Position numbers and translations under genes: made by a program
Assembly: GCA_003223295.1 (NCBI GenBank)
Contig: QHYM01000151.1
Span: 1-52,142 of the forward strand
Length of the DNA: 52,142 nucleotides
Direction of reading: 5' to 3'
DNA from: Acidobacteriota bacterium
Lineage (GTDB): Bacteria; Acidobacteriota; Terriglobia; Acidiferrales; UBA7541
Shown here: piece by piece, positions 2,031 through 11,766 of the stretch
Layout: the number at the start of each line of letters is the position of its first letter
Numbering within the stretch: the stretch's first letter is position 1
Notes under the pieces: model-generated
Databases searched by the model: none
Told to the model about the DNA's origin: nothing
What the model saw: only the letters and a program-made list of their open reading frames with translations

Positions 2031-4334
2031 CTAAGCCAAGCCTGTTTTGGACAGCGGTAATTCGCGGATGCGCTTTCCGGTTGCGGCGAAAATGGCGTTA
2101 CAAATTGCCGGGGCGATGGCCGGAAGTCCAGGTTCGCCGATGCCGCCCGGAGGCGCGTCGCTTTCTATGATGTGCACATGAATTTCGCGGGGAGCCGTAT
2201 TCATGCGCGCCATCGGATAAGTATCGAAGTTAGATTGGTCGATCGCGCCGTTCGTCGCCGTGATCTCTCCATAGAATGCGATGCTCGTCCCCATCACGGC
2301 CGCGCCTTCAAACTGATTTCGCGCCATCTCTGGATTCACAACGGTTCCTGCATCCAGCGCGGAATCCACGCGCGCGATGTGCACTTTGCCCGCTTCGTTG
2401 ATCTGCACCTGCACCACGGATGCCGCGTAGGTCAGAAAACTGCGGTGCACGGCAAGGCCCATGCCAAATCCATTTCCTTGTTTCCTTTTGGCCCATCCGG
2501 ATTTCTCCGCGACCGTCTGCAAGACCCGGCGGAATCGCGCCGTGTCGATGGGATACTGCTCGTAGGGCTGCCCGTAATTCGAATAGTCCTTCGGGAGGTC
2601 GGTCTTTGGAATGACGCGATCCGGTCCCAAAAGTTGCAGCGCGTACTCAAGCGGATCCTTTCCCGCGGCGTGCGCCAATTCGTCGGCAAAGGATTGAATG
2701 GCAAACGCGTGATAGATATTGGCCACCGACCGGAACCATCCGATTCGCACATGGGCGGTAGCCGGCCCGTTTTCGGAACGGTGATTTGGAATGGCGAATG
2801 GCAGATCCGAGAATCCCAGCCCGAGTTCACCGGGGTCCGAATAGACCGCATCGGCATTAAAAGTGGAGCCGATGGGAGGAAAAACGGTGCGCTGTAGCCA
2901 CGCGGCCGGCTTCCCATCCGCGCCCAACGCCGCTTTCATATACATGGCGGAAACCGAGTGGTAGGAGTCGAACTGGATGTCGTCCTCACGGCTCCAGACA
3001 ACTTTCACGGGTTTGCCTGTTTTCTTCGAGAGCACCGCCGCTTCCACGGCATAGTCCGGGAACGATTTCCGGCCGAATGCGCCGCCTAGTAGAGTGACGT
3101 GCACCGTCACGTCTTCCTTCTTCGCACCCACGGCTGCGACGATCGCGTCGCGCGCCCCAACGGGACTCTGTGTGGGCGCCCATACTTCCACTTTGCCGTC
3201 GCGGTAGACGGCCAGCGCGGCCGGCGGCTCCATCGCAGCATGGGCCAGCAGTGGCGCGTAATACTCGGCCTCGACGATCTTTCCGCCTTGCGCAAACGCA
3301 GTGTCCACGTTCCCGACTTCACGCACGACTTTTCCGGGCTTTCGCGCGGTTTCCTGCAATTCCTTTCGATAGGCGCCGGAGTTGAAAACGCGATGAGCAC
3401 TCTCTTCCCATTCGACCTTCAGCTTCTTTCTGCCTTGCAGGGCAGCCCAGGTGTTGTCCGCCAGCACGGCCACGCCGCCGAGCGCCTGAAATAAAACAGG
3501 CGGCTTGAACGTGTCGATGGTCGCTGTGTGCTTGACTCCCTTGATGGCTAGCGCCGCCTTGTCGTCGACGGACTTCACCGTACTTCCAAGGACAGGCGGA
3601 TGCATCACACTGGCATACAGCATCCCTTCCATGCGGGTGTCCTGCCCGAAAACTCCTTTGCCCATGCACAGATCCTTCAGGTCGTAACCCACCGAGTCCT
3701 TTCCGATGTACCGCCACTCGCTGCGCGGCTTGAGCTTCAGTTCTTCCTTTTTTGGCACATCCAGTTTCGCTGCGGCTGCCGCCAGTTCCCCGTATCCCAG
3801 CTTCTTTCCGGATTTCCCGTGCACCACAGTGTGCAATTCCGTCGAGCATTCCGCTTCGGGGGCGTTCCATTGCTGGGCGGCCGCGCGGACCAGCATGAGC
3901 CTCGCTGCCGCACCGGCCTCGCGCAGCGGAACAAAGAAGCTCACCACCGAATGAGAGCCGTCTGTGTCCTGGTCTCCATATTTTTCATCGCCAGTGGCTT
4001 GCACAACTTTCACGCGCGTCCAGTCCGCATCGAGTTCGTCCGCAACAATGCGCGGCAAGGAGGTTCGCACGCCGTTGCCCATTTCCGAGCGGTGCGCGAC
4101 GATGTATGCCGTTCCATCCGTGTCGAGCGCCAGATAAACGCTCGGCTGCAGCGCAGCTTTGCCCATGGTGTCTGCGGCGTTCGCGCTTGCATTTGCCGAA
4201 ACCGCAAACAATTGCTCCGGCTTCCATTGCACGCTCAATACAAAAGCGCCCGCACCCAGCATGCCCTTCAAAAATCCGCGCCGGCTGCCTGAGAACTCCT
4301 GCTGGTTTTCTGAAATGTTATGGATTTGAATCAT
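2031..4334 (-). CDS. Xanthine dehydrogenase/aldehyde oxidase family, molybdopterin-binding large subunit (IorB-like)
   Basis: A 767-residue molybdenum hydroxylase large subunit of the isoquinoline 1-oxidoreductase beta type. A twin-arginine signal (SRRGFLKGMLGAGAFVLS, residues 17-34) predicts Tat export of the folded, cofactor-loaded enzyme. Family motifs include GGAFGRKSFPDYAVEA in the middle, and near the C-terminus GGIGEPGLPAIAPAICNA, where the Glu of GEPG is the conserved catalytic base. Length matches the family. The start at 4334 has GAGGA a few bases upstream. Members normally work with a small 2Fe-2S subunit (IorA) that passes electrons on. No such gene is adjacent: upstream is a DinB protein and downstream the tRNA. 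The substrate cannot be predicted. Confidence 0.9.
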   Translation of the reverse strand: MIQIHNISENQQEFSGSRRGFLKGMLGAGAFVLSVQWKPEQLFAVSANASANAADTMGKAALQPSVYLALDTDGTAYIVAHRSEMGNGVRTSLPRIVADELDADWTRVKVVQATGDEKYGDQDTDGSHSVVSFFVPLREAGAAARLMLVRAAAQQWNAPEAECSTELHTVVHGKSGKKLGYGELAAAAAKLDVPKKEELKLKPRSEWRYIGKDSVGYDLKDLCMGKGVFGQDTRMEGMLYASVMHPPVLGSTVKSVDDKAALAIKGVKHTATIDTFKPPVLFQALGGVAVLADNTWAALQGRKKLKVEWEESAHRVFNSGAYRKELQETARKPGKVVREVGNVDTAFAQGGKIVEAEYYAPLLAHAAMEPPAALAVYRDGKVEVWAPTQSPVGARDAIVAAVGAKKEDVTVHVTLLGGAFGRKSFPDYAVEAAVLSKKTGKPVKVVWSREDDIQFDSYHSVSAMYMKAALGADGKPAAWLQRTVFPPIGSTFNADAVYSDPGELGLGFSDLPFAIPNHRSENGPATAHVRIGWFRSVANIYHAFAIQSFADELAHAAGKDPLEYALQLLGPDRVIPKTDLPKDYSNYGQPYEQYPIDTARFRRVLQTVAEKSGWAKRKQGNGFGMGLAVHRSFLTYAASVVQVQINEAGKVHIARVDSALDAGTVVNPEMARNQFEGAAVMGTSIAFYGEITATNGAIDQSNFDTYPMARMNTAPREIHVHIIESDAPPGGIGEPGLPAIAPAICNAIFAATGKRIRELPLSKTGLA

Positions 4335-4428: not shown

Positions 4429-4956
4429 TCACGGCGTGGGCCAGTCTCCCTGCGCGCGCCGCAAGTCAACGAGCTGGCCGAGATGATAGGAGTTGTGGTC
4501 TGCCAGCACCAGCGCCTCGCGCAAAACCGTCTGGCCATCGCCGTGCGAAATTTTCGCGTACAAATCTGTCTTCGGATTCTTCACCAAGCTGATCATTTCC
4601 TCCAGGTCGCGCCGGAATGCTTCTACGGATTTGTCCCACGCGGCCCCATCCGGAGGCACGGGCGTCTTCGGCCAGTAGCCTTCGGGAAATCCGGGCGAGA
4701 CGTGCTTCGGGTTCCGGCTAAACTCCAGAATGTCCCATTGCGCGATCCGCGAATGCTCCAAGAGTTGCCAGCCCGTGTGCGGCAGTCCGGCGACAAAAGC
4801 GCCGCGTTTCGCTTCCGGAAAACCCTCCACTGCGTCCATGAAGTGCACGTGCGCCCCGCCTCCTTTCAAAAGATAGACGAGGTGCTCGCGCAGAAGCTTG
4901 TCGTTGCTGCCCGACGCGTTTTTCTTCTTCTTTGCTGGCTTGACTTTTTTCTTCAT
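4429..4956 (-). CDS. DinB-superfamily protein
   Basis: A 175-residue protein with a very Lys-rich N-terminus (first 14 residues) followed by a four-helix-bundle DinB-like domain. The expected metal-site histidines are present: [13 protein letters not shown] in the first half, and [15 protein letters not shown] (HxxxH) near the C-terminus. DinB-fold proteins include damage-inducible proteins and metal-dependent thiol transferases (bacillithiol/mycothiol type), but the substrate here is unknown. The start lies 8 bases after the stop of the broken methyltransferase gene, within an AGGAAT context, so the two were probably co-transcribed. The Lys-rich leader is unusual and may bind nucleic acid; that is inference. 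Confidence 0.82.
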
Positions 4957-4964
4957 GGGGATTC

Positions 4965-5878
4965 CTATTTTTCTGAAAGCAGAACTTGTTGTGGCATATC
5001 CGGAACGGGATGCAAGTTCGTTTTTGCGAATCCCACGTTGCCGAACATCTTCTCATACTGCTGGCCTTGCCTGCTGGCTTCAGCGCCGTATGAACGCGGC
5101 GCATCAGTTTCTCGCACGTAGGGACGTCAAAATGATGGAATATGTTCGTGAGCAGAACGAAGTCGTACCCCTCGCCAAATTCGACCTCGAAGGCGCTGCC
5201 CGGCCGCGTCGTGTGGCGGTCTGCCACGCCGGATTTTTTAGCGTTCTCCCTAGCCACTTCCAGCACCGCAGGCCAGTCCACAGCGACAATCTGCGCATGG
5301 GGATTGCGCTTCGCCACGGTGATTCCATACATCCCGTGCCCAGCGGCAATGTCCAGCACTTTGCAGGGCCTGCCTTCCGCGGCGTTCGTCAATCCCGCAA
5401 TGAATTCCGCAGCCGGTATCGTCAACGGCGCCATCGAACGCGCAAAATTCACCCAGATATCTTCGTGAGCCTTGGTATGGTCGCCAGTTTCGCTGGCCGT
5501 TCCGCCTTTGCGCACGGCTTCTGCCAGCACCCCAAAATTCTTTCGGCTCCAAGGGCTGGCAAGAAAATCAATCATGGTCGCGAGGCAGGCCGGGGAGTGG
5601 CGATTCAGAAATACGGCAGACTCCTGCGTGAGCGCGTACCGCTCTCCCTTCTTGGTCAGAAGCTCTTTCACCGTAAAGTAATCGCACAGAATCCGAACGC
5701 CGCGTTCCGCTGCTCGGGTTTTCGCTGCGAGAGATGCGGCCGTGTCAGCTCCCTCCGCGATTGCCGTGAAAATGTCCAGCTCAATTGCTGCTTTGAGTGC
5801 TTCGGTCTCCTGAAACGCAATCATGGTATTGAAGATGCGTTCCGGAGTGGGCCGGGAGGTTGTTGTGGATGCAGCCAT
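4965..5878 (-). pseudogene. SAM-dependent (O-)methyltransferase, broken by internal deletion and frame change
   Basis: From the ATG at 5878 (AGGAG just upstream) the frame encodes a small-molecule O-methyltransferase: a winged-helix dimerisation region, then the SAM-binding motif VLDIAAGHGMYG, the acidic VAVDW loop and LLTNIFHHF. At about 5060-5070, after ALKPAG, the family's sequence stops. In the original frame the reading becomes nonsense ([13 protein letters not shown]) and runs through the DinB gene. In another frame a typical C-terminal tail resumes ([20 protein letters not shown]) and ends at TAG 4965-4967, 8 bases before the DinB start. By comparison with family members about 40-45 residues, the strand after LKPGG and the loop before the last helix, are missing. 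Either a recent deletion or an assembly error. Confidence 0.8.
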
Positions 5879-6032
5879 GAATGTGGCTCCTGTTCTTGAA
5901 TCGAAATAACCAGCTAATAGAGATGCGGCCTGTCGCGGACTGTTACGCCGCGCAAGCACCTCGTTGCGTCATTGCTCGAAACCCGCCCATGCTGGCATAC
6001 TTTCTCTCCCCGCGGCAAGCAAGAGGCATCCG

Positions 6033-6764
6033 ATGAAACGCGAATATCAGCGCTGGTACTCGCAGCGGCTCGGTTTGGAGCTGGGCGTCGCGGTTTATGG
6101 CCACTGGGGGCCGCCGCTGCTGGGCTTTCCGACCAGCGCTGGCGACGAGTGGGAACTCGAAGGCCAGGGCCTGGTAGATGCGCTCGGCGATTTCATCGAG
6201 GGCGGCAAAGTCAAATTGTTCACGGTGAATTCCATCAACGGGCTCAGCTTTTACAATAAAAGCGCGCACCCGTTCCACCGGAGCTATGTCCAGGCGGTTT
6301 TCGATTCCTATTTGCGCGAAGAAGTCGTGCCGTTCATCTGGAACAATTGCCAGACGCAGGGCATCGCCATCTCCACCATGGGCGCTTCCTTCGGTGCGTA
6401 CCACGCGGCAAATTCTCTATTCAAGCACCCCGACGTAATCAAGCGCTGCTTTGCTATGTCCGGTGTCTACGATTTGCGCAATTTCATGGATGGCATGTAC
6501 GACGACAATTTCTATTTCAACAATCCCGTCGATTACCTGTCGAACATGAGCGATCCCTGGTTTTACGAACAGGTTGCGAGCTGCGACATCCACGTCACGA
6601 CGGGGACGGGCCCGTGGGAAAACAGCGGCCCCACGTACCGTCTTTCGGAAGTCCTTTCCGGCAAAGGCATTCGTCACTCCCTCGATAACTGGGGTCCGCA
6701 GGGCGGCCACGACTGGCCGTACTGGAAGCACCAGATGCGGGAATACATCTCGCAACTTTTTTGA
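6033..6764 (+). CDS. Esterase/alpha-beta hydrolase, COG4947-like
   Basis: A 243-residue hydrolase. The ATG at 6033 has AGAGG seven bases upstream; the frame is open further upstream but without family-like sequence. The nucleophile elbow GASFG places Ser119, and a C-terminal GGHDWPYW supplies the likely catalytic His226; the acid is not assigned. The opening (MKREYQRWYS, then VYGHWGPPLLGFPTSAGDEW) matches my recollection of the uncharacterised esterase group COG4947. It is cytoplasmic: no signal peptide. It converges on the M29-type peptidase gene with only 45 bases between their stops and may belong functionally to the ligase cluster next door. Substrate unknown. Confidence 0.82.
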   Translation: MKREYQRWYSQRLGLELGVAVYGHWGPPLLGFPTSAGDEWELEGQGLVDALGDFIEGGKVKLFTVNSINGLSFYNKSAHPFHRSYVQAVFDSYLREEVVPFIWNNCQTQGIAISTMGASFGAYHAANSLFKHPDVIKRCFAMSGVYDLRNFMDGMYDDNFYFNNPVDYLSNMSDPWFYEQVASCDIHVTTGTGPWENSGPTYRLSEVLSGKGIRHSLDNWGPQGGHDWPYWKHQMREYISQLF

Positions 6765-6809
6765 AGTGAAGTTCTTCGAAAAATCAGCTTAGAGAAGATG
6801 AGCAGGTTC

Positions 6810-7835
6810 TTATATAAGGCCGAGGTGGCCGAGCTGGTAGCGGCCTTTTTCGATGACTTGGTCGTCATCGATCCAGACGTCGCACTTGCGGGTAAGCACG
6901 TCCACGTGCGTCGTGGATTTCCAGTCGGCGTGGGTTTGGCTGCCGTAGGGATCGCCGAACGCGAGGTGCACGCCCGGGAATTTCTCATCCTGAAGCAGGA
7001 TGCCGATCATTTCCGTTAACCCGAGATTCGTTCCGAAGGCCAGCTCGCCGACGCGGTCACTATTCTCATCGGTGTGGCAATAGTCCCAGAATTCCTGCTC
7101 CAAATCCTTGCGGGCACACGCAGCATCCACGAGACGCGCCGCTTTGATCGTCAAAGTAAGCGGCGTGGATTGCAGGTCGCCGTATTTTCCGTTGAAGTGA
7201 TCGCCCGCGGTAGCGTCACAAACAAACGTGCCATCCACCGTAGCGGGAGTCGTAAAAACCTCGCCGGCCGGCAGATTCGACCAGTAGCGAGGATTGATAA
7301 GCCCGCTGGTCTTCACCCAATCGAGCCGGCGGTCAAAGTGCGCGGCAAACTCCGTGCCCGCCTCGGTTTTGACTATCAGCATTTCGGCGCGCAGCATGCG
7401 CTCGCGCAGCTTCTCGCTCAAGCGGTCCACCATGCGGTAATCGGCGCGCATGCCCTGCTGCATGATCTGCGGCGTCACGCCCACCATGTGCGCGTAGCGA
7501 ATCTGGCGGCGCTCGACCACTCTCACGATGGCCATGCGCGCAGCGAGTTCACCTGGCTGCGGCGTCATACACATCACGCCGGCGTCCGCGGTTTCCAGCG
7601 CGCTCAAAACCTCTGCCGGCGCAGCGGCCATCGGCCGTGGACCTAGTTCTTCCAGCAAGAGTCCCTGGCAACGCGCTTCGCGTTCGACGAGCGCGGCAGA
7701 AATGCTGGCTGCTACAGCGCGGCTCGCTTCATCGGCAATCAGCGCGACCTGTTCGTCCGGACGCACACCAAGGCACGTTTCCACGGCGTTGCGCGCGCCC
7801 GGCATTAGCTCTGGGTTCGGGGCCCCGAAGTTCAT
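6810..7835 (-). CDS. M29-type aminopeptidase (thermophilic metalloprotease family)
   Basis: A 341-residue protein of the aminopeptidase T/M29 fold, a family that also contains 2,5-dihydroxypyridine dioxygenase. Metal-site features are visible in the C-terminal half: GELAFGTN, GVHLAFGDPYG and a terminal HADWKSTTHVDVL with His310-x-Asp312. The ATG at 7835 gives the normal family length. Its ribosome-binding site is weak, but the upstream extension to 7994 overlaps the preceding ligase gene and has no family resemblance. It follows the circularly permuted ATP-grasp gene by 106 bases in the same direction and is probably its last co-transcribed partner. It may trim or recycle the product of the ligases; that role is inference. 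Confidence 0.82.
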   Translation of the reverse strand: MNFGAPNPELMPGARNAVETCLGVRPDEQVALIADEASRAVAASISAALVEREARCQGLLLEELGPRPMAAAPAEVLSALETADAGVMCMTPQPGELAARMAIVRVVERRQIRYAHMVGVTPQIMQQGMRADYRMVDRLSEKLRERMLRAEMLIVKTEAGTEFAAHFDRRLDWVKTSGLINPRYWSNLPAGEVFTTPATVDGTFVCDATAGDHFNGKYGDLQSTPLTLTIKAARLVDAACARKDLEQEFWDYCHTDENSDRVGELAFGTNLGLTEMIGILLQDEKFPGVHLAFGDPYGSQTHADWKSTTHVDVLTRKCDVWIDDDQVIEKGRYQLGHLGLI

Positions 7836-7941
7836 CCCAATAATTTTACTTGAATCGCGGAGATTTTCTAGCGAAGTCGTTTGCTTGCGGCTTTTCTCCA
7901 ACTGGTCGAACGGACGGGCAAAGTCCGTAGCTACTTCCAGA

Positions 7942-9339
7942 CTAGTTGGAGGGCAAGCTTTTAGGGGAGACCCGAAACGCAGGCACCTGGCCACCCCCGC
8001 TGGTCACGTTGGCCAGTCCCGTGGAGCTGAGCCGCGTGAGAAACCCGCAGAGTTTTCCGCGGAACAAGTACGGCGCGAAGTCCACCAGCATGTCGCGGTA
8101 ATCCACCCTGCCCATATCCGCGATATACGGGAAAATTTCCCGGCGAATGGGGATGCGTTCCTGCACGATCCACGCGCCGTTCTTCGCCGACAGCGCGCGC
8201 TCGATGGCTTCGTCCCAGGCCGACTCGCTGGTTTCCCATCCCAACGTCACGCCGGAGCCGCCGTACTCATCGCTGGGCTTGAGCACCAGGTTCTCCCGCT
8301 CCTTGCGAATGAACGCAAGTAACTCAATGTGCTGGCCGTAGTGCGCGGTTTGCACGTCAGCGACGACGCGCGTCCACGGGACGTGCTTGCGAATCACTTC
8401 GCGTTCGCCCAGCGAGAAAAGGCCCCCGTTTTGCTCGTCGGTGAGGACCGCAAAAAACGCCTTCACATGCGGAATCTTGCAACGAAAGTTGTTCGCCACG
8501 CACACTGCGCCCGCCGTGTAGGCTTTGACCAGCGCCGAGCATTCCGTCGGCTTGGCCACGATGTCGTTGATCAGCACGCGGCGGTAGACCAGATCGATCT
8601 TCTTGCCTTGTGCCACCAGCGATTTGCCGTCCCATTCAAGCCACCGCGGGTCGGAAATGAGCGTGGGAATTCCCATTTGTTCGAAGCGCTCCTGGAGAAT
8701 TTCAAATTCGCTCCAGGTTGGAACTTCTTCCGAGTCCACAATGGCGATCTGCGGTTTTTGCTCCGAACCTCCCCAGTCCACGTAACTTTGCAGCAGCGCT
8801 TCGAGCAGCTTGGCGCTGAGCGAATACCGGTGCACTTCATATTTCCTGGCGAACTGTCCCATCACCGGAAGTTCGTTGAAAATCTCTGCGAGCGTTTCTG
8901 CATAGCCCGCGCCGGCCGGCGATTCTCCGTTGTATTCGGCAAATTTCAGGGAATCGGGAAGCAAGAACGCGTCCAGCCGCGACGCCGTGCTGGCAGGACC
9001 GAAGCCCACGTGAATGCGCGCCAGGCGCTCCTCTTCTTCGCGCAGATGCAATTGAGCAAAAGTGTGTTTGTCGCTCAAGGCGGAAATCACCACGCGCTCG
9101 CCAAGCTCCGCCATGGTCTCTGCCACAGTTCGAACGCGTTCTTCGTCTTCGGGAGAAAGAAAAAAGGGCCGCAGGAAAGGGCAGTGGACGCGATCGCCAA
9201 AGGTCAGCTTGGCCCGGCGCAAGCGCTTGAACAAATCTTCCGGAAGTCCGGGCATGCGCAAAAGCTGGGCCTTCAGGATTTCATGCCACTCCTCTGCCGG
9301 CGAAGGGGACAGAGGCGAAGGTGTGGGAGCAGTGGTCAT
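7942..9339 (-). CDS. Circularly permuted ATP-grasp ligase
   Basis: A 465-residue protein of the circularly permuted ATP-grasp type. The nucleotide-binding lysine strand and glycine loop (NLVLKPSDEYGGSGVTLGWE) lie in the C-terminal third, followed by AWIVQERIP and the terminal metal/phosphate motif LTRLSSTGLANVTSGGG. The N-terminal half (FAEYNGESPAGAGY, YRRVLINDI) is also typical of this group, which forms carboxylate-amine (peptide-like) bonds. The ATG at 9339 begins 2 bases after the stop of the upstream ATP-grasp gene, so coupling is likely. Frames upstream of 9339 run into that gene and are not used. Both substrates are unknown. Confidence 0.85.
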   Translation of the reverse strand: MTTAPTPSPLSPSPAEEWHEILKAQLLRMPGLPEDLFKRLRRAKLTFGDRVHCPFLRPFFLSPEDEERVRTVAETMAELGERVVISALSDKHTFAQLHLREEEERLARIHVGFGPASTASRLDAFLLPDSLKFAEYNGESPAGAGYAETLAEIFNELPVMGQFARKYEVHRYSLSAKLLEALLQSYVDWGGSEQKPQIAIVDSEEVPTWSEFEILQERFEQMGIPTLISDPRWLEWDGKSLVAQGKKIDLVYRRVLINDIVAKPTECSALVKAYTAGAVCVANNFRCKIPHVKAFFAVLTDEQNGGLFSLGEREVIRKHVPWTRVVADVQTAHYGQHIELLAFIRKERENLVLKPSDEYGGSGVTLGWETSESAWDEAIERALSAKNGAWIVQERIPIRREIFPYIADMGRVDYRDMLVDFAPYLFRGKLCGFLTRLSSTGLANVTSGGGQVPAFRVSPKSLPSN

Positions 9340-9341
9340 GC

Positions 9342-10367
9342 TCACGATCCTTGCGCGGAACTCCCGGCCGGTGCAGCGGCGGATTTCTGTCCTGACGCTG
9401 CGCTCTTGGGCGCTCCCGTGAAGCCTGAAGCAGCGCCAATCCCCAGCATTTCTTCCCAACGCGGCCAGGGAGAATTAGCCTGCCCGTGAAGCGCACGGTC
9501 GATCACCAGGCGCGCCATTTTTTCAACGACCAGCTCGAAATAAAATTCCGTGATGCGGTCACGCTCGAAATCCGGCGCGGGATTCAGGAAATCAATCGCA
9601 TAGGGAACGCCATCCTTGACGGCAAATTCGATGGTATTCATTTCATAGCCGAACGCCTGGTTGATGGTTTGCGCGTCTTTCACAATGCGCACGCCCAGTT
9701 CCGATGTTAAGTACGCATGGTCAACCAGATATTTACGTTCCTTTGGATCGTAATGAACGGGGATGATGTCCGTCTTGCCGAAGGTGAAGCAGCGCACGTA
9801 TTGCGTGAAATCGATGAATTCTTGCAGGGTCATGCAATACGGCGAAGTCTTATCGTAGGCGGCCAGCAACTCTTCCTTATTGTTGACCTTGTCAACGTGC
9901 TTCCAGCCTCCACCGGAGAATGGCTTGAGAATCGCCGGCCGCCCGACGTAGTCCAGCAAACCGTCCCAGTCCATGGGATATTCCAGGTTGTGGAGCGACT
10001 CCGAAGTGATGTCCACATCGCGGGGATAGCCCTTCTGCGGGAGCAGCACCGTCTTGGGAATAGCGATTCCCAGCTTCGCGGCGACCGAATAGTTGAAATA
10101 TTTGTCGTCGGCAGTCCACCAGAAAGGATTGTTGATGACGTAGGTTCCCTGCAATACGGCGTGCTTCAAATAACCGCGGTAATATTCGACTTCGTGCGAG
10201 ATGCGGTCGACGATCACGCTGTACTTGGCGGCCTCGCCCATGCGCGTGCCGCCCAGCTTCACGAATTCCGCGGCCACGCCGTCTTTCTTGCCGAGTTCGT
10301 TCACCCGCACGATAAACGCCGGAGGAAAACTGTATTCTCGCCCGCAGAGAAGGCCGACCTTTTTCAT
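9342..10367 (-). CDS. RimK-like ATP-grasp ligase
   Basis: A 341-residue conventional ATP-grasp protein. It begins MKKVGLLCGREYSFPPAF (N-terminal pre-ATP-grasp fold). The ATP-binding lysine and glycine-rich loop follow at RPAILKPFSGGGWKHV, then MTLQEFIDFTQYVRCF, and the metal-binding end of the fold at YAIDFLNPAPDFERD (Asp and Asn). The last 30 residues are a low-complexity Ala/Ser/Gly tail after WEEMLGIG. Such enzymes activate a carboxylate as acyl phosphate and couple it to an amine. It lies 50 bases after the GCS2 ligase gene and 2 bases before the second ATP-grasp gene, so three ligases sit in one transcription unit. Confidence 0.87.
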   Translation of the reverse strand: MKKVGLLCGREYSFPPAFIVRVNELGKKDGVAAEFVKLGGTRMGEAAKYSVIVDRISHEVEYYRGYLKHAVLQGTYVINNPFWWTADDKYFNYSVAAKLGIAIPKTVLLPQKGYPRDVDITSESLHNLEYPMDWDGLLDYVGRPAILKPFSGGGWKHVDKVNNKEELLAAYDKTSPYCMTLQEFIDFTQYVRCFTFGKTDIIPVHYDPKERKYLVDHAYLTSELGVRIVKDAQTINQAFGYEMNTIEFAVKDGVPYAIDFLNPAPDFERDRITEFYFELVVEKMARLVIDRALHGQANSPWPRWEEMLGIGAASGFTGAPKSAASGQKSAAAPAGSSAQGS

Positions 10368-10417
10368 TTGCGTTCTCCTGTCAGGAAGCTGTGGGACTGC
10401 CTCGCTTGCGATTCGCG

Positions 10418-11554
10418 TCAGTTCACGGCGTGTGCCGAAGAAGTCCGTGGCTCGGTCACGCCGGCACGCGTTTCCGCAACCAGATGGCGCACCACGGCTT
10501 TCAAATCGCCCGTCTCTCGATAAACTCGCAATTGGCGGTCTGCGCTGGTGCCTTCCTTTAGGATGGTGTGCACGTACTCGACGGCGCTGCGGCTTCCCAG
10601 GTCATCCACAACATCGTCCACGAGTTCCAGCAATTCCGGAATCAGTTGGCGCATGTTCACTTCGGTTTCTTTTCCGAAGTCAATCAGTTTGCCTTCGATG
10701 CCGTACCGCGCCGCGCGCCATTTGTTTTCCTCGATCAGCGCGCGGCGGTAAAGGCGCCAGCTCTGGTTGCACGTGTACAGCCGGTGCAGTTTCACGATGA
10801 TGGCCTGCGCCAGCGCGGCAATGGCGACGGCTTCTTCAACCTTGGTGGAAACATCAAACATGCGGAACTCCAGCGTGCCGAATGTCGGGTGCGGGCGCAC
10901 GTCCCACCAGATTTTCTTGCCGTTATCGATGCAGTTGAGTTTCACCAGCAGATTGATGAAATTCTCGTAGGCGCTCCAGGATTCGAATTGTTCCGGCACG
11001 CCGGTTCGCGGGAAGCGGCGGAACACCGTGGTGCGGAAGGATTTCAGTCCTGTGTTTCTGCCCATCCAGAAAGGCGAGCTGGTCGAGAGCGCCAGCAAAT
11101 GCGGTAGGAAGTAGCGCACCCCGTTCATCAAGTCGATAGTGGTCTGCTTGTCCGGCATGGCCACGTGCACGTGCATGCCGAAGATGAGCAGCGACCTTGC
11201 CAGTTGACCCATTTCCTCAACGATGTGCTCGTAGCGCTCCCCGGGAGAGATGACCTGGTCGATCCAGCTGGAAAACGGATGTGTGCCTGCAGCCGCCACC
11301 TGCAGCCCGGCGCGTTCCGCTGCGGCAACCAGCTCGCCGCGCGTGCGATGCATCTCGATGCGCAGATCGCTGACGCTGTCGCAAATGCGCGTGCCCGTTT
11401 CCACGATGGATTGGTGCAACTCGGGCTTGACCTGTTCCGCGATGTCCGGCGAAGCCTGGGAAATCAGCTGGCTGACGTGCGAACGCAGCTCGCACGTCGC
11501 AGGATCAATAATCTGAAATTCTTCTTCGACGCCGATGGTGAAGCGGTGAGCCAT
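10418..11554 (-). CDS. Carboxylate-amine ligase, GCS2 family (YbdK-like)
   Basis: A 378-residue member of the glutamate-cysteine ligase family 2. Visible motifs are IGVEEEFQIIDPATCEL (residues 7-23, metal/ATP-binding glutamates), GMHVHVAMPDKQ (His128, His130), LSTSSPFWMGRNTG and RPHPTFGTLEFRMFD. The ATG at 11554 is preceded by GGAGGG. YbdK-type proteins have weak gamma-glutamylcysteine ligase activity in vitro and unknown physiological substrates. This gene is first in a minus-strand run of three ligases and a peptidase; the 231-base gap to the divergent gene at 11786 would hold the promoter. Confidence 0.9.
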   Translation of the reverse strand: MAHRFTIGVEEEFQIIDPATCELRSHVSQLISQASPDIAEQVKPELHQSIVETGTRICDSVSDLRIEMHRTRGELVAAAERAGLQVAAAGTHPFSSWIDQVISPGERYEHIVEEMGQLARSLLIFGMHVHVAMPDKQTTIDLMNGVRYFLPHLLALSTSSPFWMGRNTGLKSFRTTVFRRFPRTGVPEQFESWSAYENFINLLVKLNCIDNGKKIWWDVRPHPTFGTLEFRMFDVSTKVEEAVAIAALAQAIIVKLHRLYTCNQSWRLYRRALIEENKWRAARYGIEGKLIDFGKETEVNMRQLIPELLELVDDVVDDLGSRSAVEYVHTILKEGTSADRQLRVYRETGDLKAVVRHLVAETRAGVTEPRTSSAHAVN

Positions 11555-11766
11555 GTGTGCTGGCCCTCCGGAGTGCGTGAACTTGTCGGGGACTTCGCAG
11601 TTGGTATCATACCGCGCCACGGATAGGATTTGCACGCGCGCGACTGAACCAGTGGGCAGCTTCCTACTTGCGGCTCTAGCCGAAGTCTGACGCTAGCTTC
11701 CCACATTCCTTGCCGTGCCCGAGCCGTTTCGGGTCTTGTATACGCGGGAATTCAGTTCCATGATAG

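Follow-up and report, generated by a model that had tools for sequence, protein, structure and literature searches.

Glutathione and glutathionylspermidine are made by a GCS-type ligase followed by ATP-grasp ligases. More generally, Iyer et al. (Mol Biosyst, 2009) reportedly linked peptide ligases of the ATP-grasp and glutamine-synthetase folds with peptidases of unrelated folds. Both PMC7947786 and PMC3765264 cite that study. A further resemblance is found in a 2008 paper (PMC2588565), which in its available part describes a GCS2-sized carboxylate-amine ligase with a neighbouring glutamine amidotransferase (GATase)-like thiol peptidase or gamma-glutamyl cyclotransferase, and predicts that the system makes glutathione-related or other peptides. 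Here, we describe a related cluster of five genes in a stretch of 52,142 nucleotides (the window) from contig QHYM01000151.1 of an Acidobacteriota bacterium. The cluster encodes a GCS2/YbdK-like carboxylate-amine ligase (GCS), a RimK/Ddl-like ATP-grasp ligase (AGR), a circularly permuted ATP-grasp ligase (CPG), an M29-like metallopeptidase (M29) and an esterase (EST). These labels, like CPG2, G15 and BESA below, were coined for this analysis.

Like glutathione and glutathionylspermidine synthesis, the window cluster combines a GCS-type ligase with ATP-grasp ligases; unlike it, clusters of the window type add an exchangeable hydrolase and EST. Permuted ATP-grasp enzymes also form a tagging system together with alpha-E and transglutaminase proteins. 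The window cluster lacks the partners of that system, since a Pfam scan of its five proteins gave no alpha-E, transglutaminase or N-terminal nucleophile (NTN)-hydrolase match. The ligase of the 2008 system belongs to a different family, for which proteobacteria and firmicutes are named as sources, and the terms ATP-grasp, M29 and esterase are absent from the main text of PMC2588565 as far as it was available. Set against the neighbourhoods reportedly predicted by Iyer et al., what this analysis itself measured is the exchange of M29 for G15 and the occurrence of the set in two phyla. We found no description of this gene set in the literature searched, which left most subscription journals outside and does not show its absence from print. 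We regard the set as a new form of already predicted ligase-peptidase neighbourhoods. Its families are associated in two phyla and most of their members keep the catalytic signatures. We think it rather probable that the cluster is one pathway, which would build a small amide-linked compound and then trim or recycle it.

An earlier note on this DNA had described a minus-strand run of three different carboxylate-amine ligases, and this description held, GCS and CPG being recognised by Pfam and AGR by its profile and predicted structure. GCS lies far above the cut-offs of PF04107 (GCS2; 204.7 bits against 21, E 2.5e-60) and NF010039 (530.4 bits against 371), its closest solved structures are 1tt4 and YbdK (1r8g), and it carries GVEEE, a GxExE-type motif kept in 131 of the 134 family frames collected. 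A GhExE Mg/ATP motif of carboxylate-amine ligases is described in the available part of PMC2588565. GCS is thus a GCS2/YbdK-like protein by family cut-offs and motif, with a predicted glutamate-amine ligase activity.

AGR gave no Pfam match and falls outside the RimK family TIGR00768 (33 bits, below the cut-off of 143.4). Its profile matches the D-Ala-D-Ala ligase 3r23 (E 2.8e-6), and its AlphaFold2 model (predicted local distance difference test, pLDDT, 82.2) retrieved the ATP-grasp fold in Foldseek (E 5.4e-13, probability 1.00). The top 50 Foldseek rows contain Ddl, RimK, LysX and ArgX, as well as macrocyclases, and AGR is thus an ATP-grasp enzyme of that broad type. The putative metal-site strand reads DxxN instead of the usual ExN; it is kept in 154 of 164 family frames, and KPxxGGG[W/Y] in 159.

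CPG passes the cut-offs of PF14403 (38.4 bits against 32) and PF04174 (25.9 against 23.1), and its relative at locus L062 stays under the former (30.5 bits). The sole solved structure matched by its profile is 3n6x (E 2.4e-4), deposited as a putative glutathionylspermidine synthase. KPxDxxGGxG is present in 81 of 89 family frames and a C-terminal NxTSGG pattern in 66. CPG2, a divergent counterpart found in Terriglobia and others, was counted as a permuted ATP-grasp protein, mostly on its position and shared motifs; the sequence evidence that ties it to CPG is weak (an hhalign E of 4.7e-4 and probability of 33%, with an earlier CPG profile), and CPG2 of L110 matches PF04174 under the threshold. 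An AGR-CPG fusion frame in L017 was discarded as evidence since it has an unreadable base at the junction, and an N-terminal extension of AGR in L038 was taken for read-through. The AGR and CPG profiles, which had matched each other at 1E-159, were rebuilt without fused frames; some earlier order lists used the old profiles.

AGR served as the anchor gene for the comparative searches, in which neighbouring genes were called with a home-made codon-based caller instead of a standard gene finder. Among the best 80 of 169 relatives found in GTDB genomes, a mostly close and biased sample in which 44 loci have at least 4.5 kb on both sides of AGR, the region within 7 kb of AGR contained GCS in 74 cases, CPG or CPG2 in 74, EST in 55, M29 in 53 and G15, which can occupy the place of M29, in 6. 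A fairer sample consisted of 297 Acidobacteriota genomes spread over the phylum, of which 88 had AGR; in 10 of these 88 it was only a distant AGR, around 30% identical. From the 96 AGR matches listed, 93 loci were fetched (the window itself and two fragments were left out), and 83 of these were core loci. Here the 7-kb surroundings contained GCS in 39 cases, CPG or CPG2 in 41, both kinds of ligase in 25, EST in 33, M29 in 17, G15 in 6 and all five functions in 10. The two sets overlap in part, as seen by identical AGR rows (L065 and L089, L080 and L140). Across the phylum, GCS is therefore near AGR in about half of the cases, not always. At the level of whole genomes, a strong GCS (>400 bits), present in 90 of the 297, accompanied a core AGR in 66 of 78 genomes versus 24 of the 219 others (Fisher 4e-33, uncorrected for ancestry). 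Ten genomes with a distant AGR only and five with GCS below 400 bits had been dropped before these counts, and the score limits for co-occurrence were chosen after the lists had been seen.

The association extends to a second phylum, that of locus L064, whose record is titled Chloroflexi. Among its 251 genomes, AGR scored at least 298 bits in 54 (62 with any match) and GCS more than 400 bits in 53. Both genes were present in 49 genomes, AGR only in 5 and GCS only in 4 (Fisher 2e-41, uncorrected), that is, GCS accompanied AGR in 49 of 54 genomes versus 4 of the 197 others. These counts leave out GCS matches below 400 bits and the 8 of 62 AGR genomes below 298 bits; one genome, G462, was counted as GCS only because its AGR is broken in two pieces that stay under the limit. 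The two genes lay at most 10 kb apart on one contig in 33 of the 49 genomes. At 20 AGR loci of this phylum (19 genomes, mostly picked for long contigs, with stretches up to 16 kb), CPG was present in 19, GCS in 10 and EST in 7. Three Chloroflexi from the GTDB search for relatives have EST-AGR as a separate pair and CPG-GCS-M29 elsewhere in the same genome. Gene order also varies: GCS-AGR-CPG-M29 with a convergent EST in the window and its relatives, EST-AGR-GCS-M29-CPG2 in Terriglobia, and AGR-CPG-GCS in L062, L065 and several loci of the L064 phylum, among others. Families that come together repeatedly while their order and flanks change carry more weight than synteny among close relatives, where the flanking genes are conserved too. 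The earlier note had held that the pathway idea would fall if the neighbourhood were not conserved. The idea survived this check, for the genes remain associated in different classes, where their order and flanks vary, and also beyond the phylum.

Other features of these loci may be recorded. A membrane dipeptidase (M19) gene is inserted between EST and AGR in L072 (1633-2703). A second esterase (EST2) occurs near 23 of 163 core AGR loci and an ATP-grasp_4-type protein near 8 (examples of one or the other are L028, L037, L047, L095, L099, L145 and L148). Six genomes (L090, L092, L097, L101, L163, L166) have a second AGR copy, which forms its own branch on the AGR tree and has CPG nearby in four of them. 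The distant AGR proteins (L113-L121, L174) have an enterochelin-esterase-like hydrolase at most loci, and at several a weakly peptidase-S51-like protein or EST; in L119, a neighbour of 1,038 residues gave no Pfam match. These loci possibly represent a second, related system. In L016, a record titled Betaproteobacteria, AGR is 88% identical to that of the window within an Acidobacteriota-like cluster, so that the record is probably misnamed or a mixed bin. No AGR match was obtained in 72,556 plasmid records. Directly upstream of GCS, a protein of the histidine-ammonia-lyase/aminomutase type is found in L053 (5248-6768), L055 (1-1449) and L056 (5134-6654), the Pfam scan covering L053, with ACG at the cofactor motif that is usually ASG. 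It would point to a beta-amino acid or an aromatic amino acid as substrate, which is only a lead because the three loci are close relatives.

Which bond would the hydrolase cut? M29 is near 70 and G15 near 12 of the 163 core AGR loci, and both together near none. An AGR tree, built by a quick method from 140 of the 163 loci (without most of the window's close relatives and without rows that were short or ambiguous), requires M29 and G15 to have been exchanged at least four times. L148, with G15 and BESA, groups with L150 and L159, which have M29, in one family. When 30 AGR-bearing Acidobacteriota genomes, picked in most cases for having no hydrolase near AGR, were searched in full, four had a strong G15 without M29 and one had M29 without G15. 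The genome of the window has no G15 match. G15 gave no Pfam match in the three proteins scanned, and its fold was approached by a predicted structure. The first six Foldseek rows are Arabidopsis gamma-glutamyl peptidase 1 (E 3e-7 to 3e-6, probability 1.00), and a second aligner gave tm1158 (Z 9.6), gamma-glutamyl peptidase 1 (Z 9.5) and PuuD (Z 8.1), grouping G15 with class-I glutamine amidotransferases and the related homoserine acyltransferases, although Z values of 7-8 can arise without kinship. Proteins of this class carry a nucleophile Cys and a His-Pro-Glu motif. In G15, the predicted nucleophile motif CH[ST][FY]G is present in 15 of 15 frames and HPE in the expected context in 14, the pattern falling elsewhere in L196. 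By its model, G15 is a predicted class-I glutamine amidotransferase-like fold. The accessible part of PMC3042935 describes in vitro cleavage of a glutathione conjugate by gamma-glutamyl peptidase 1.

A BesA-like ATP-grasp ligase (BESA) adjoins G15 in 6 of 15 loci (L039, L122, L148, L194, L196, L197), and GCS, G15 and BESA stand together in L194 and L197. The protein of L039 is a relative of BesA, the L-propargylglycine--L-glutamate ligase, and not BesA itself (NF042917, E 2.6e-51, 174.8 bits against a cut-off of 750); a literature search aimed at BesA gave no match, and there is no BesA-like ligase among the called genes of the window. We also fetched 20 GCS loci away from AGR, where the partner beside GCS was a gamma-glutamyltranspeptidase at two loci (L175, L176), an AstE/AspA-type amidohydrolase in L179, by a scan, and in L180, by its matching gene order, and G15 in L194; in the other 15, whose neighbours were not scanned systematically, no hydrolase partner was recognised. 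That several unrelated amide hydrolases partner one ligase suggests that the bond made by GCS must be cut again. In this respect, the exchange of M29 for G15 is the best clue that the bond cut may be a gamma-glutamyl or an N-terminal amide.

Of the two hydrolases in the window, M29 matches PF02073 (37.3 bits against a cut-off of 27). In 21 aligned sequences including its own, E193, E265, H291, H311 and D313 are invariant, residues that would correspond to the five metal ligands of AmpT, and four patterns are kept in 66 to 69 of 71 family frames. EST matches PF00756 (40.8 bits against 22, E 2.9e-10), and its S119, within GASFG, and H226 are invariant in 20 aligned sequences including that of the window; GxSxG is present in 90 and HDW in all of 92 family frames. 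Comparison of EST with solved structures gave nothing useful, the best match being a catechol dioxygenase (E 0.01).

In the pathway that we favour, GCS would activate a glutamate carboxylate, most likely the gamma one, with ATP and join it to an amine or amino acid, and AGR and CPG would each form one further amide bond. M29, or G15 instead, would break one amide bond, either because the gamma-glutamyl group serves as protection or handle or in turnover of the product, and EST would remove or form an ester or thioester. The gamma-glutamyl part of this reading is drawn from the chemistry of GCS2 relatives, as given in the available part of PMC2588565, and from the G15 fold. The earlier note had proposed a stepwise assembly of a short peptide or gamma-glutamyl compound, with the peptidase and esterase processing or recycling it. 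This reading is partly supported: the gene association speaks for one pathway, and the hydrolase exchange and the predicted G15 fold fit a gamma-glutamyl compound with a processing hydrolase, on which the peptidase and esterase of the window may act. Tentatively, we propose a narrower version, in which many Acidobacteriota and Chloroflexi would share an undescribed gamma-glutamyl pseudopeptide (a cofactor, protectant or signal) made by one inherited EST-AGR-CPG-GCS core, with an interchangeable deglutamylating M29 or G15, the latter often accompanied by a BesA-like ligase.

Several results weigh against the pathway. In Acidobacteriota, 44 of 83 core loci have no GCS within 7 kb and only 10 unite all five functions; EST-AGR occurs without GCS in L154, L160, L161 and L168, and most loci of family f22 carry AGR without GCS nearby. 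A core AGR without strong GCS was found in 12 of 78 genomes, which leaves room for readings other than the three-step one, and GCS without core AGR in 24. The co-occurrence tests count related genomes as independent, with no correction for shared ancestry. As to the hydrolases, M29 and G15 were absent from all 20 AGR loci of the L064 phylum, and neither was strong in 25 of the 30 whole genomes, one of which had a weak partial M29 match; with so many AGR genomes lacking both in the stretches searched, not every version of the set includes a hydrolase. The G15 model reaches only intermediate quality (pLDDT 67.3; predicted template modelling score, pTM, 0.74) and its best Foldseek match reaches a TM-score of at most 0.47. 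The assignment of M29 as a peptidase is not safe despite its Pfam match, because its profile scores better with the pyridine dioxygenase 7cn3 (3.7e-6) than with the aminopeptidase AmpS (1.4e-3).

A low-molecular-weight thiol pathway could account for the same ligases. GCS would make gamma-glutamylcysteine, AGR would act as GshB, CPG would add an amine in the manner of glutathionylspermidine synthase, as the putative label of its sole structural match 3n6x invites, and EST would act on S-acyl forms. The order GshA, GshB, GspS does parallel GCS, AGR and CPG, and PF00756, the family of EST, also contains S-formylglutathione hydrolase. Likewise, GCS matches YbdK, a carboxylate-amine ligase to which a title cited in the available part of PMC2588565 ascribes gamma-glutamyl:cysteine ligase activity. 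However, the host genome encodes BshA, the first bacillithiol enzyme and the only one searched (526.8 bits against a cut-off of 273.7), and there is no glutathione synthetase among the top 50 Foldseek rows for AGR, which makes this account unlikely. Still less likely is the use or detoxification of amines as in the Puu pathway, with GCS tagging the amine and a hydrolase later removing the tag. The match of G15 to PuuD agrees with it, as do L194, where GCS, G15 and the BesA-like ligase stand in a row with a class-III aminotransferase, and L132, where AGR, EST and an aldehyde dehydrogenase are lined up. Nevertheless, the aminotransferase and the dehydrogenase were noticed at one locus each among neighbours scanned in part, and AGR and CPG are two extra ligases; to our knowledge, the Puu pathway has no counterpart of either.

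The resemblance of AGR to RimK, LysX and ArgX, some of which have protein substrates by their match titles, raises the idea that a protein (as in RimK-like tagging of a ribosomal protein) or a cell-surface polymer receives the amino acids instead of a free small molecule. We consider this improbable, and the observation that no other protein of at least 70 residues (smaller ones were not called) recurs beside the cluster across distant lineages argues weakly against it. Finally, a loose co-location of independently useful enzymes, to which the partial sets lacking GCS lend some colour, is very improbable given the re-association in new orders over two phyla and the co-occurrence in whole genomes.

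In the window itself, open reading frames confirmed the five genes (Table 1), with gaps in transcription order of 50 (GCS-AGR), 2 (AGR-CPG) and 106 bases (CPG-M29) and 45 bases between the ends of M29 and EST, as the earlier note had given them. The gaps leave no room for an additional gene of ordinary size, and the same grouping recurs in relatives, which makes it more than chance. The absence of a carrier protein, non-ribosomal peptide synthetase, transporter or precursor-peptide gene from the run was borne out by the Pfam scan of the five proteins. Downstream, the minus-strand genes at 4718-5959 and 2031-4334, methyltransferase-like and oxidoreductase-like by appearance, are similar to flanking clusters found repeatedly among close relatives and look like ordinary local synteny.

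Table 1. Genes of the ligase cluster in the window.
Feature	Positions	Strand	Remarks
Esterase (EST)	6033-6764	+	Alpha/beta-hydrolase; convergent with the minus-strand run
M29-like metallopeptidase (M29)	6810-7835	-	ATG at 7835; frame open to GTG at 7994
Circularly permuted ATP-grasp ligase (CPG)	7942-9339	-	Open reading frame and Pfam
RimK/Ddl-like ATP-grasp ligase (AGR)	9342-10367	-	Profile and predicted structure
GCS2/YbdK-like carboxylate-amine ligase (GCS)	10418-11554	-	Frame open to GTG at 11635

Both Acidobacteriota and Chloroflexi occur widely, with a chemistry that is in large part undescribed. That a set of three ligases has been kept across two phyla despite reshuffling and a change of hydrolase suggests a compound of lasting value to its makers. 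Expression of the genes does not require the organism, so the metabolite is directly testable, and the exchange of the hydrolase indicates which bond to seek.

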